64,000 nucleotides of DNA, from NCBI RefSeq assembly GCF_020171845.1, contig NZ_JAIVAM010000015.1, positions 62,001 to 126,000 of the forward strand. Reading direction: 5' to 3'. Numbering within the stretch: the stretch's first letter is position 1; each line of letters opens with the position of its first letter. The notes under the pieces are model-generated. The model was given only the letters and a program-made list of their open reading frames with translations. It was not told the origin of the DNA and did no database searches. This document shows positions 9,275 to 52,380 of this stretch, one piece after another. The position numbers were made by a program, and so were the translations under genes. This stretch comes from Cytobacillus kochii (GTDB taxonomy: Bacteria; Bacillota; Bacilli; Bacillales; Cytobacillaceae).

Positions 9275-11065
9275 TTATTTTACTTCCTCCAAATAAATGA
9301 TAATGTCTTCTATATCAACAGAAGGTGAATCCTTTAAGGTCTTAAAATCGATCGATCCATCCTTTTTACGAACACATAAAGGATAACCGCCCACTTGTGC
9401 TTCCTCTATTTTTTCATAATTGTCGTTTGCTTGTTTACTTTCTATCGAATAAGTTGTATTTATCTTCTTATTTAACTCTGTGAACACATGCTCTTCGTCA
9501 AAAAGCATATGAGCTTTCACAGTTGTGGGTAACCTTCCATCCTTTTCCTCATCCATCCGCTCAGTCGCAATGGTAAACGTTTTATTATAGCCAAACTCCG
9601 GAAGAAATGACTGTGTTACCAGTGCATTGTAATTAGGATCATCAGACATTACCAGGATGAATTCGTAAGGTGTTAAATCGATTTCGAATTGACTATGCTC
9701 ATCTAGTATTTGTCCCGAGTAAGTTTCAATCCCCTTTTTTCGGATAAGCTTTAACTTGCCACTTGATGTGTCACTAATTAGTACAGGATTACCCAACTCT
9801 TTTAACTTGTATGCTAAAGCAATTGAAAAACTACTTGCTCCAACGATCAGTACACCTGGCTCTGATTCAGATGCTAATTTTAATTTCTTTGCCAGCGGTG
9901 CTAATGTAAAACCATGAGCACAAACCGTAATAAAAACGAGAGCAAAAGTTAATGTTGTAAGTAATCCCGCTTCTCGATAACCATCATCCATTAATGTCGT
10001 TGCGAAATAACCAGAAACCGTTAATGCCACGATTCCTCTTGGGGCAATCCATCCAATTAAAGTTTTCTCTCGATTGGTTAGCTCTGTCCCTATTGTTGAT
10101 ATCCAAATTGATAGTGGACGAACAACAAATAACATCACGATTACAAAGCCAATGATTTGGATACTAAACACTTCTGCAATTGTCTCTCTTGTTAAAGAAG
10201 CTGTTAATAGAATAAATATTGTAGATGTTAAGATTACAGAGACATTTTCAATGAAGTGACTAATATTCCCAAGGGCAGATACCCTTTTCTTCTCTCTAGC
10301 TAGCACGAGTCCCATCACTGTCACAGCAAGCATGCCTGTTTCATGCATAATCACTTCACTTATGCCAAAACAAATGAACACAAGTGATAAAGTAATAGGG
10401 GATTTCAAGTATTCTGGAAACAACCCTTTGTTAGCCATCCAGCTCAAAACCTTTGCAAATATGTAACCGATCACAATCGCTAATAATGAAGCTAACAAGA
10501 ATTTTCCGAGCTCCATCATGCCTAACGTATCACTTACTAATACTTTAATAACCTCATAAGCAAATAAGGCTAGTAGTGGTCCTGCTGGGTCGACAATAAT
10601 ACCTTCCCATTTTAATAAAGCACCCACTCGTGGTTTAAGTTTGGACTGCCTTAATAAAGGGATTATAACAGTTGGCCCTGTAACGATAAATAATCCACCG
10701 ATGATAAAAGCCACCTCTAAACTCAAGCCTGCGATATAGTGAGCTGCCAAAGATCCAAGTATCCAAGCAAGAAACGCCCCAACAGTAACTACCCGAAAAA
10801 CAGATTTGGAAATACTACGAACTTCACGAATATCAAGTGTTGTACTACCTTCAAATAATATGACAGCTACAGCTAAAGAAATAACAGGGCTATAAAGACT
10901 TCCTAGATCTTGTTCTGGGTTCAATAGTCCGAATGCTGGACCGATTACTAATCCAGCAATCGACATAATCACAATGGAAGGCCATTGAATTTTCCATGAT
11001 AACCACTGCGAAAAGACCCCTAAAGCAATAACGAGAATAATTCCTAATAATCCAAATGACTCCAT
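9275..11065 (-). CDS. CPA1-type cation:proton antiporter with C-terminal RCK/TrkA-like domain
   Basis: About 596 residues. The N-terminal 400 residues form 12-13 membrane segments of the NhaP/CPA1 Na+(K+)/H+ exchange domain, with FIVTGPTVIIPLLR and the WEGIIVDPAGPLLAL segment holding the family's acidic residue, and a WIAPRGIVALTVS motif. The C-terminus has a Rossmann-like TrkA-N/RCK fold starting at GVLIVGASSFSIALAYKLKE, which normally gates transport by nucleotide or ion binding. The start is uncertain: an ATG with weak AAGTGA is used here; a GTG 39 bases upstream with AAGGGAG is an alternative. It is transcribed divergently from the GntR-led operon. Confidence 0.88.
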   Translation of the reverse strand: MESFGLLGIILVIALGVFSQWLSWKIQWPSIVIMSIAGLVIGPAFGLLNPEQDLGSLYSPVISLAVAVILFEGSTTLDIREVRSISKSVFRVVTVGAFLAWILGSLAAHYIAGLSLEVAFIIGGLFIVTGPTVIIPLLRQSKLKPRVGALLKWEGIIVDPAGPLLALFAYEVIKVLVSDTLGMMELGKFLLASLLAIVIGYIFAKVLSWMANKGLFPEYLKSPITLSLVFICFGISEVIMHETGMLAVTVMGLVLAREKKRVSALGNISHFIENVSVILTSTIFILLTASLTRETIAEVFSIQIIGFVIVMLFVVRPLSIWISTIGTELTNREKTLIGWIAPRGIVALTVSGYFATTLMDDGYREAGLLTTLTFALVFITVCAHGFTLAPLAKKLKLASESEPGVLIVGASSFSIALAYKLKELGNPVLISDTSSGKLKLIRKKGIETYSGQILDEHSQFEIDLTPYEFILVMSDDPNYNALVTQSFLPEFGYNKTFTIATERMDEEKDGRLPTTVKAHMLFDEEHVFTELNKKINTTYSIESKQANDNYEKIEEAQVGGYPLCVRKKDGSIDFKTLKDSPSVDIEDIIIYLEEVK

Positions 11066-45214: not shown

Positions 45215-45451
45215 ATGAAAATTATTGATGAACTGTACGACTATTATCGTAATAAGCTTACAGGTGACGAAGAAGATATTGATATGCTTACGTTTGCTTT
45301 CTTAGAGGAAATGTCCCGAGAAGATATCCTTACATTAATTCAAGAACTGGATAACCAAGAACTATATAATTTAATGGGTCTTTACGTTATTGAATCCCTT
45401 AAAGGAAAATTTGCAGAAAGTGATTTTACAAAGCCTCAAAACTATCATTGA
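45215..45451 (+). CDS. Small acidic helical protein (DUF6154-like)
   Basis: A 78-residue acidic protein (KIIDELYDYYRNKLTGDEED, AFLEEMSREDILTLIQELDN), mostly helical, likely a small protein-protein interaction module. The family name is my best guess from the pattern. The ATG follows AGGTG; it is divergent from the 107-residue gene. Function unknown. Confidence 0.72.
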   Translation: MKIIDELYDYYRNKLTGDEEDIDMLTFAFLEEMSREDILTLIQELDNQELYNLMGLYVIESLKGKFAESDFTKPQNYH

Positions 45452-45653: not shown

Positions 45654-46670
45654 GGAATTACGACTCATCTGAATGAGATGCATCGTTGAGTCGGGAAGAT
45701 GATGGAATCGCTACTCATCTTAGCGGTGATCCACAGTTTAGTCGGGCTTTTGCCCGAATCGCTACTTATCTCAACGAAGACCCACAGTTTAGTCGGGCTT
45801 TTGCTCGAATCGCTACTTATCTCGACGGAGTTCCATAGTTTAGTCGCGATTTTGCTCGAATCGCTACTTATCTCAACGGAGTTCCATAGTTTAGTCGCGA
45901 TTTTGCCCGAATCGCTACTTATCTCCACGAAGATACAAAGTTTAGTCGCGATTTTGTTCGAATCGCTACTTATCTCGACGAAGAACCACAGTTTAGTCGC
46001 GATTTTGCTCGAATCGCTACTCATCTCGACGGAGTTCCATAGTTTAGTCGCGATTTTGCCCGAATCGCTACTTATCTCGACGAAGATCCATAGTTTAGTC
46101 GCGATTTTGCTCGAATCGCTACTTATCTCCACGAAGATACAAAGTTTAGTCGCGATTTTGTTCGAATCGCTACTTATCTCGACGAAGATACAAAGTTTAG
46201 TCGCGATTTTGCTCGAATCGCTACTTATCTCGACGAAGATACAAAGTTTAGTCGCGATTTTGTTCGAATCGCTACTCATCTCGACGGAGTTCCATAGTTT
46301 AGTCGCGATTTTGCCCGAATCGCTACTTATCTGGGCGGTGATCCATAGTTTAGTCGCGATTTTGTTCGAATCGCTACTCATCTGGGCGGTAATCCACAGT
46401 TTAGTCGCGCTTTTGCCCGAATCGCTACTTATCTCGACGAAGATCCAAAGTTTAGTCGCGATTTTGCCCGAATCGCTACTTATCTCCACGAAAAACCACA
46501 GTTTAGTCGCGATTTTGCCCGAATCGCTACTCATCTCGACGGAGTTCCATAGTTTAGTCGCGATTTTGTTCGAATCGCTACTCATCTCGACGGAGTTCCA
46601 TAGTTTAGTCGCGATTTTGCCCGAATCGCTACTTATCTGTGCAGAATCCACAGCTTAGTCAAGTCAATGC
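45654..46670. repeat. 51-bp tandem repeat array (19 regular units plus decayed ends)
   Basis: GAATCGCTACT recurs exactly every 51 bases from 45705 to 46623, 19 times. Each unit has a conserved core (TTTAGTCGCGATTTTG, AATCGCTACTTATCT) and a 13-14 base variable segment drawn from a small set (CGACGGAGTTCCAT, CGACGAAGATACAA, CCACGAAGATACAA, GGGCGGTGATCCAT). GCGATT and AATCGC form a 6-bp stem with a 7-base loop in most units. A decayed 50-bp unit precedes the array and a shortened one ends it. Both strands stay open for over 300 codons because 51 is a multiple of 3; no ribosome binding site supports either, so I treat it as a minisatellite. Confidence 0.9.
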
Positions 46671-46844
46671 TTGAGTTCTCAATTCTTTACACTTCCTTGT
46701 GTTCGTATTCTTGTTTAACAACTATTCTCGGCTCTTTTCAGCCCACTTAAGTTCGCAATTTCAGATCTCCTTTACACTCGGGTCTTTCAGATTCCACATT
46801 CTTTCATATCGTCTCTCCCTGCACATTTATATTTCCCAAAAATA

Positions 46845-46877: not shown

Positions 46878-47315
46878 TTATCCTAAAAATGCTTTAAGCA
46901 TCCAGTTATGTTTTTTCACACTCTGTTTAACTGCAATCAGCATATCACCAGTGGCTTCATCTTTCGCTTCATCAGCTAGTTCAATACCTTCTTGTAGTTC
47001 GTCTAACATTTTTTCGAAGTCACTCCATACAGATTGTACCATGTCTCTTGCGTCTTCTTTACCTGTTGCTTCTTCAATTGAAGCCGTATCTAAGCAATCC
47101 TTCATTGTTGCTACAGGATTTCCACCTAAAGCAAGTATTCTTTCCGCTAATTCGTCAATATGGTCATTAGCTTCGTTATATAGTTCTTCAAATTTTTCAT
47201 GTAATACGAAGAAGTTGCTTCCTTTAACATACCAATGGTAGTTATGTAACTTCACATACATTACAGTCCAGTTTGCTACTTGTTTGTTTACTGATTGGAT
47301 TAATTTTTCGCTCAT
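46878..47315 (-). CDS. dps: Dps family DNA-protecting ferritin-like protein
   Basis: A 145-residue Dps/MrgA-type mini-ferritin that oxidises and stores iron in a 12-subunit shell and protects DNA. The inter-subunit ferroxidase residues are visible: NYHWYVKGSNFFVLHEKFEE (His near 31 and 43) and YNEANDHIDELAERILALGG (Asp near 58, Glu near 62). The ATG follows GGAGG; an upstream in-frame start is unlikely. A sigma-B-type promoter lies upstream, consistent with B. subtilis dps being a general-stress gene. Confidence 0.95.
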   Translation of the reverse strand: MSEKLIQSVNKQVANWTVMYVKLHNYHWYVKGSNFFVLHEKFEELYNEANDHIDELAERILALGGNPVATMKDCLDTASIEEATGKEDARDMVQSVWSDFEKMLDELQEGIELADEAKDEATGDMLIAVKQSVKKHNWMLKAFLG

Positions 47316-51402: not shown

Positions 51403-52380
51403 ATGAAGAAATTATTTATTTTACTTATTCCTTTTATTTTCATATTTGCTGCATGCTCAAATTCAACAGCGAGTGACAAGGGGACAACACAATCATCAGA
51501 AGAAGTGTTAACTGTTTATACGACAGTCTACCCATTACAATATTTCACAGAAAGAATCGGTGGAAACCTTGTTGATGTAAAAACTGTTTACCCTCCCGGT
51601 TCTGATGAACATACTTACGAACCTTCACAAAAGGACATGATTAAAATGGCCGATTCTGATTTATTTATCTATTTGGGCCTTGGTTTAGAAGGATTTGTTG
51701 ATCAAGCGAAAGATATCTTAAGTAATGAAGGCGTTAAAATGATTGCCGCTGGGGAACATCTTGCAATAGAAAACACAGAGCAGCACGAACACGATGATCA
51801 TGATCATGAACATGAACACGACCATGATGGTCATAGTCATGATGGTCACGATCATGGCGATGTTGACCCACATGTTTGGATCGATCCAGTATACGGACAG
51901 CAATTAGCAGAAGAAATCAAAACACAATTAATTACTGCCCTTCCAGAGCATGAAGAAGAATTTACTGCAAACTTTGATCAACTAAATGAAGAACTTAATG
52001 AATTAAATGATAAATTTACTTCAATGGTTGAAAATGCAGACAAAAATAAATTCATCGTTTCTCATGCAGCCTATGGTTATTGGGAATCGCGTTATGGATT
52101 AGAACAAATAAGTGTGGCCGGGCTTAGCACATCTAGTGAACCCTCCCAAAAACAATTACAGAATATTATTCAAACAGCAAATGAAAATACATTAGACACG
52201 ATTTATTTCGAACAAAATGTTAGCTCTAAATTAACTGAAATCGTTCAATCTGAAATTGGTGCCGAGAGCTTACAGCTTCATAATCTTGCTGTCTTAACTG
52301 AAGCAGATATTAATGAAGGAGAAAACTATTTTACATTAATGGAAAGAAATATTGATAACCTGGAAAAAGGTTTAAACTAA
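51403..52380 (+). CDS. Zinc-binding ABC importer lipoprotein (AdcA/ZnuA family)
   Basis: 325 residues: a lipoprotein signal with lipobox FIFAACS (Cys about 17) and a cluster A-I metal-binding fold. The His-rich loop near residues 126-150 (EHDDHDHEHEHDHDGHSHDG) is typical of ZnuA/AdcA zinc receptors; ligand histidines include DEHTYEPSQ, DPHVWIDP and VSHAAYGYW. Two Zur boxes upstream imply zinc-starvation induction. No cognate permease or ATPase is adjacent, so those subunits must be elsewhere. GGGGAG precedes the ATG. Confidence 0.92.
   Translation: MKKLFILLIPFIFIFAACSNSTASDKGTTQSSEEVLTVYTTVYPLQYFTERIGGNLVDVKTVYPPGSDEHTYEPSQKDMIKMADSDLFIYLGLGLEGFVDQAKDILSNEGVKMIAAGEHLAIENTEQHEHDDHDHEHEHDHDGHSHDGHDHGDVDPHVWIDPVYGQQLAEEIKTQLITALPEHEEEFTANFDQLNEELNELNDKFTSMVENADKNKFIVSHAAYGYWESRYGLEQISVAGLSTSSEPSQKQLQNIIQTANENTLDTIYFEQNVSSKLTEIVQSEIGAESLQLHNLAVLTEADINEGENYFTLMERNIDNLEKGLN

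Follow-up and report, generated by a model that had tools for sequence, protein, structure and literature searches.

A 51-bp tandem array of Cytobacillus kochii and the helical phase of constant-length, variable-sequence repeats

A mosaic, non-coding array between convergent gene ends

The locus described here raises the question of what a long run of 51-bp units, open on both strands, represents between two gene ends of Cytobacillus kochii. The window, by which we mean the whole 64,000-nucleotide stretch of DNA analysed, contains one TRF array of period 51, at 45705–46638 on the plus strand (18.3 copies, 89% match, 0% indels, score 1357). Read in 51-bp steps from 45654, it comprises 18 clean units (45705–46622), preceded by a degenerate first unit (45654–45704) and followed by a degenerate last unit (46623–46673), all on the plus strand, which confirms the exact spacing reported in the initial annotation. 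The array is flanked by convergent gene ends. Specifically, the left neighbour encodes a DUF6154 protein (45215–45451, plus strand; PF19651, E 5.5e-18) and the right neighbour a Dps/ferritin-like protein (46878–47315, minus strand; PF00210, E 1.5e-33), each with its 3′ end facing the array. Elsewhere in the window, a 15-bp repeat of 2.7 copies (51817–51856) lies within an open frame (51403–52380) encoding a His/Asp-rich stretch, and looks like an ordinary coding repeat.

The variable segments of the units recur in non-adjacent units, as the initial annotation had claimed (its unit n is unit n + 1 here, where the count starts at 45654). In particular, CGACGGAGTTCCAT is present in units 4, 8, 13, 18 and 19, CGACGAAGATACAA in units 11 and 12, and CCACGAAGATACAA in units 6 and 10. 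Fifteen of the 18 units are distinct, with unit 6 identical to unit 10, and units 8, 13 and 19 identical to one another. Because the mean identity of two units is nearly flat with their distance (0.899 at distance 1, 0.896 at 5, and 0.880 at 11) and identical units lie far apart, the description of the array as a mosaic of shuffled units stands. The pattern of variants fits unequal exchange or conversion. A CRISPR array consists of a constant repeat with unique spacers between the copies; that reading was dropped, since the variable segments recur inside the window array. A plasmid or phage origin was likewise rejected, with no match at E 1e-5.

Both strands are indeed open across the array, with frames of 328 aa on the minus strand (45665–46651) and 319 aa on the plus strand (45699–46658). 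Since 51 is divisible by three, the unit length alone cannot exclude coding, and a gene encoding 17-residue repeats would account for both the length and the open strands. The codon statistics argue against it: under a pooled codon model no frame exceeds −0.02 bits per codon, and no frame of the window array carries a codon signal. The scores of all 51/52-bp arrays range from −0.41 to 0.24 bits per codon, and six arrays labelled coding by the codon-score script range from 0.34 to 0.77. Furthermore, relatives have arrays with periods of 52 or 103 bp, so that the gene reading, already doubted in the initial annotation, is scarcely credible. Matches of the two array frames to Pfam were judged artefacts, the sole one above cut-off being PF11416 (17.7 versus 16.6 bits, best stretch 7 residues). 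The plus frame at 45699–46658 thus passes the cut-off of PF11416 (Syntaxin-5_N), which is likely to yield a false annotation; more generally, long open frames made by such arrays could pass as genes.

The hairpins noted in the initial annotation are present in the letters, but the evidence does not support them as the key feature of the array. Specifically, the best perfect inverted repeat of the window's consensus unit is no better than in dinucleotide shuffles (p 0.18). Among the arrays compared, inverted repeats reach significance in 8 of the 23 cluster representatives, and in 12 when all 51 arrays are counted. REP/BIME elements of enterobacteria have palindromic units and differ in this respect from the unit of the window. 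What the two would have in common is an intergenic place and, on a reading discussed below, a link to gyrase, for which REP/BIME elements are named in PMC6379681.

Folded as RNA, 300 nt of the array are only slightly more stable than shuffled sequence, with z −2.1 on the plus strand (3 of 200 shuffles equally good) and z −1.3 on the minus strand (20 of 200), and the only Rfam match (E 0.91) lies outside the array. A hairpin or RNA element was therefore rejected as the common feature. A transcribed element, read through and acting as tandem stem-loops or as a sponge, would draw on the somewhat better folding of the plus strand and on the 52-nt repeats of B. coagulans, which Subirana and Messeguer (2021, PMC8161180) report to be transcribed. 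It has against it the inverted repeats, significant in 8 of 23 representatives and not in the window, the minus-strand folding, the lack of an Rfam match inside the array, and a helical phasing of A+T (see below) that would not be expected for RNA, and we consider it very unlikely.

One length and several sequences within the genome

The genome of C. kochii, which from its gene content we take to be Bacillus-like, contains further arrays related to that of the window. A BLAST search of this genome with the array as query identified four further array sites. Two boxes, AGTCGCGATT and CTACTTAT, separated by 12 bp, occur in 10 exact copies in the window array, the first at 45842–45871 on the plus strand, and are short sequences that arrays of the window's family have in common. 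In the whole genome, the two-box pattern was found at 174 places at ≤3 mismatches, versus 8 places for the reversed pattern, and at 160 places at ≤2 mismatches; the sites number 12, with the ends of contigs C1 and C2 counted as one. At these two contig ends (C1:173095–173139 and C2:1–1016) the arrays belong to one family and run on one strand, so that the assembly was probably broken inside one array and the copy numbers may be too low. The array sequence is species-specific: against 160 places in the own genome, congeners are at control level, with one match each at ≤2 mismatches in 6 of 35 congeners, and the reversed pattern likewise has matches in some congeners. The exact two-box pattern had no match in genome_contigs, a collection from which near records may be missing.

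Across 11 array consensus units, identity is 93% inside the boxes and 50% outside, a contrast that is inflated because 6 of the 11 arrays were located by the box search. The other five (the window and the four BLAST sites) were found independently of the boxes, and the comparison leaves out a twelfth array, whose consensus is 50 bp long. Boxes common to arrays of the own genome point to a sequence-specific protein instead of a platform on which helical phase is read. In such a case, each array would be a row of sites for a nucleoid or partition-like DNA-binding protein on one helix face, with AGTCGCGATT and CTACTTAT as candidate sites here and other boxes elsewhere. The conservation of the boxes, including that in the five independently found arrays, speaks for this explanation, while the search-inflated contrast, the dropped array, and the existence of other families without these boxes in the same genome speak against it; we regard it as distinctly unlikely.

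Those other families emerge from a sample of the own genome that was drawn without regard to arrays (C1:1–160000 and C2:100001–300000, 360 kb in total). The period is 51 in nine arrays of the sample and 20 in one more. Seven of the nine do not cluster with the window array (0.60 identity; shuffled units reach at most 0.55). Thus, several unrelated sequence families of period 51 coexist in one genome, and 284 of 295 unit spacings in this genome are exactly 51 bp. Nine arrays in 360 kb amount to 25 per Mb, or more than 100 genome-wide if the sample is typical. That the genome is rich in 51-bp arrays, several of them of different sequence, had escaped the initial annotation.

Fixed length and rapid turnover among relatives

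A search for one box repeated at 51 bp gave matches in 10 of 397 genomes of the order, the own genome included. At the matched loci of the other nine, TRF found 51-bp arrays whose sequences belong to three other families in G376, G415, G384 and G187; G388 has arrays of 52 bp there, and G401, G235, G026 and G321 have no array. We further sampled 29 other genomes of the order, in 90 stretches of 20 kb that add up to 1.8 Mb. Arrays played no part in the choice of the stretches, but did in that of some genomes: G376, G187, G384, G388, G026 and G321 were chosen from the matches at 51 bp, and G028, G003, G045, G006 and G044 were resampled because their first stretch carried an array. The figure for arrays of 16 of 29 genomes leans high, because some genomes were selected for arrays or resampled in this way.

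The 90 stretches contain 43 arrays with at least 2.8 copies and a period of at least 15 bp, 7 of which were dropped as coding-like before periods were counted. Among the 36 that are left, 32 have a period of 20, 21, 42, 51, 52, 83 or 103 bp, and the remaining four have periods of 24, 39, 126 and 151 bp. These 32 are whole multiples of about 10.35 bp (tolerance 0.85), a property that by chance 16% of all integers between 15 and 110 would have (p 5e-22), where the value of 10.35 bp was picked after seeing the data and sampling stayed within one order.

Units of 51 bp are found in C. kochii (G000), G376, G415, G187, G384 and G015, and units of mostly 52 bp in G388, G003, G044, G006, G005, G051 and G321, for some of these on few spacings. 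The split runs through a single genus, with 51 bp in G000 and G015 and mostly 52 bp in G003, G044, G006, G005 and G051. A separate observation concerns G187, in which two long arrays with almost identical 51-bp units (L134:8378–9147 and 9842–10777) lie about 700 bp apart, one of them 98% regular. What the relatives have in common is the fixed length, not the sequence, a point that the initial annotation had also missed.

These properties place the window array in a class already described from Bacillus and other Firmicutes, in which tandem repeats of 51–53 nt, with a sister class of 20–21 nt, keep one length and vary in sequence. Subirana and Messeguer (2021, PMC8161180) describe the class in 176 Bacillus genomes, where 1,886 of 4,029 repeats are 51–53 nt and 781 are 20–21 nt long. 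The same article reports that the repeat sequence is variable and species-specific, that short sequences are shared, and that place is partly conserved; nucleoid proteins or small RNAs are suggested, and 20–21 nt is noted to be two helical turns. With 18 units at exact 51-bp steps, the window array falls within the class as delimited by 51–53 nt, at least four repeats and at least 60% of equal length, and by its codon score it is non-coding. The arrays described here resemble the class in unit length, in variable and species-specific sequence, in the presence of several families per genome, in the short sequences that arrays share and in a place that is partly conserved between related genomes, and differ in that 52 nt is the main length there and 51 bp here. 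The satellites of Leptospira interrogans and Methanocella conradii, as presented in PMC6749651, are also related non-coding arrays at many sites per genome, but the units of their families are 37, 46 and 69 long, rather than of one length over unrelated sequences.

Conservation of place was followed at four sites in G015, the closest of the congeners compared by Dps identity (97%). At the Dps site, G015 has 328 unmatched bp versus 1,396 bp here, with flanks about 95% identical and without an array, and 29 congener Dps loci have no array of period 51 or 52 in flanks of up to 1.5 kb. The array is also absent from G015 at a second site, next to a gene that we presume from gene content to be gatB-like. 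The other two sites have arrays in both genomes with different copy numbers: 9.8 versus 12.7 copies with a unit 90% identical at the third site, and 23.1 versus 16.3 copies at the fourth, presumably degU/degV-like by its gene content, where the unit is 69% identical between flanks that are 94% and 96% identical. Place and length are thus partially conserved, and array length is retained while unit sequence is replaced. The initial annotation had allowed for a recent local expansion. The absence of the array from the Dps site of G015 agrees with this, but the many 51-bp arrays in the genome and the 51-bp array shared with G015 at another site do not, and an expansion that is local only was rejected on the several array sites of the same genome together with the nine unselected 51-bp arrays.

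Fast turnover between two close species, in presence, in copy number (9.8 versus 12.7) and in unit sequence, would be expected of a neutral or selfish minisatellite, in which duplication and unequal exchange are favoured where DNA that is looped or wound on protein is in helical register, so that the arrays which survive have units of whole turns and no function is served. The mosaic units also favour this account. It is less readily reconciled with the fact that each genome examined mostly keeps one length, 51 or 52 bp; overall, we consider it possible and lean against it.

Helical phase and position near gene ends

A unit of 51 bp corresponds to five helix turns, and the mean spacing of the 20–21-bp arrays is 20.69 bp (122 spacings). 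In genome G028, one array of about 20.6 bp (L163:13098–13541) has spacings that repeat as 21, 21, 19, 21 and 21, which add up to 103 bp. One unit in five of this array is short, as if helical phase were restored; alternatively, a single event may have been copied within a 103-bp repeat.

Within the units, A+T content is phased with the helix. Fourier power at five cycles per 51/52-bp unit is strongly raised over 23 cluster representatives (z 8.8), with all others of the first 12 harmonics at ≤1.7, and the full set of 51 arrays (21 clusters) gives the same z of 8.8. For the 22 arrays in 15 clusters that come from unselected stretches or are the window array itself, z is 5.8 (other harmonics shown ≤1.7), and for 12 unselected arrays of other genomes it is 6.2. 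The five-cycle share is 0.099 in the arrays, and 0.045 in background non-coding windows versus 0.042 when shuffled (9,496 windows). The 20–21-bp units show a corresponding two-cycle phasing (z 5.1 over 21 TRF rows, in which some arrays have two rows).

The Fourier test is weak on single arrays, and the phase appears by pooling only. The window array has a five-cycle share of 0.12, which is marginal (p 0.05), the 10 unselected and window arrays of the own genome are not significantly phased when taken alone (z 1.3, p 0.11), and one own-genome family of six arrays has shares of 0.00–0.05. These three results stand against a reading of the arrays as platforms for a phase-reading protein, and the families without phasing are in keeping with neutral minisatellites. 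The pooled phasing itself, on the other hand, is not predicted by a mechanism that acts on length only.

The arrays also have a preferred position relative to genes, measured for 51–52-bp arrays and their multiples. Among gaps of 200 bp or more, 44 contain such arrays (27 tandem, 15 convergent, 2 divergent) and 682 contain none (447, 96 and 139, respectively). Divergent gaps are depleted (Fisher p 0.009) and convergent gaps enriched (p 0.0016), in contexts that contain errors because the genes were called crudely from open frames and a pooled codon score, and in gaps that are longer than the background because the array lies within them. The own genome contributes 13 tandem, 8 convergent and no divergent gaps (p 0.008 for few divergent, p 0.09 for many convergent), 10 of these 21 from loci found through boxes or BLAST. 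If the arrays were neutral, their position would reflect selection against the disturbance of promoters. The terms gyrase, intergenic, convergent, period and supercoil did not occur in a text search of the part of PMC8161180 available; neither the helical phasing of A+T within units nor the scarcity of divergent gaps, both measured here, was found there.

A candidate platform for a wrapping protein

A free sequence, a fixed length of whole turns, and phased A/T near gene ends are together what a wrapping protein would favour. Judged from sequence, there is an even chance that the array is a DNA-level platform for a protein that wraps or polymerises. An array of this kind would act, if at all, at the level of its DNA rather than as a gene. 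Units of whole turns, in which A/T-rich and G/C-rich segments tend to alternate at the helical repeat, would present the same helix face every five turns, and a protein could then wrap or polymerise along the array near gene ends. Copy number would shift by whole units, recombination would swap unit variants within an array, and the sequence of the unit could be replaced while its length stays. The protein that reads the phase is a candidate that we infer from these features.

DNA gyrase can be compared with such a protein on the basis of two reports. In the E. coli gyrase motif, G/C is phased along two flanks of 47 bp; each GyrA CTD is thought to wrap 35–52 bp, and the regions downstream of operons are enriched in cleavage sites (PMC6379681), while a preprint gives 48 bp as wrapping the pinwheel (PMC12393610). 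Gyrase would fit the arrays in arm length (35–52 bp per CTD, 48 bp per pinwheel) and in the regions downstream of operons, and may fit in helix-phased G/C over arms of about 47 bp, to judge by the pooled families, with the window marginal and the own-genome arrays taken alone not significantly phased. It would not fit in period, which is 10.75 bp in the E. coli motif and 10.2–10.4 bp in the arrays, and, in the view of the authors of PMC6379681, the attraction of gyrase to downstream regions is not hard-wired. According to the same article, the E. coli sites furthermore differ from the arrays: each stands alone and spans 130 bp with the cleavage region in its centre, whereas the arrays consist of tandem units of fixed length. 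Gyrase, rather than another wrapping or nucleoid protein, is the leading candidate, but an unlikely one.

A more complete version of the gyrase proposal would hold that gyrase wraps DNA on the constant-length repeats found in Bacillus-like Firmicutes, whose five-turn or two-turn phased arms lie near gene ends with positive supercoils, whose lengths of 51 or 52 bp are tuned to the geometry of each organism's own gyrase, and in which length is selected and sequence drifts. We hold this version to be unlikely as a whole.

Why some bacteria keep dozens of arrays of one length and free sequence is an open question in print, as stated in PMC8161180, and helical phase is a new handle on this known class. 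If the length is a helical-phase constraint that is read by a wrapping protein, the arrays would be a largely sequence-independent element of chromosome architecture.
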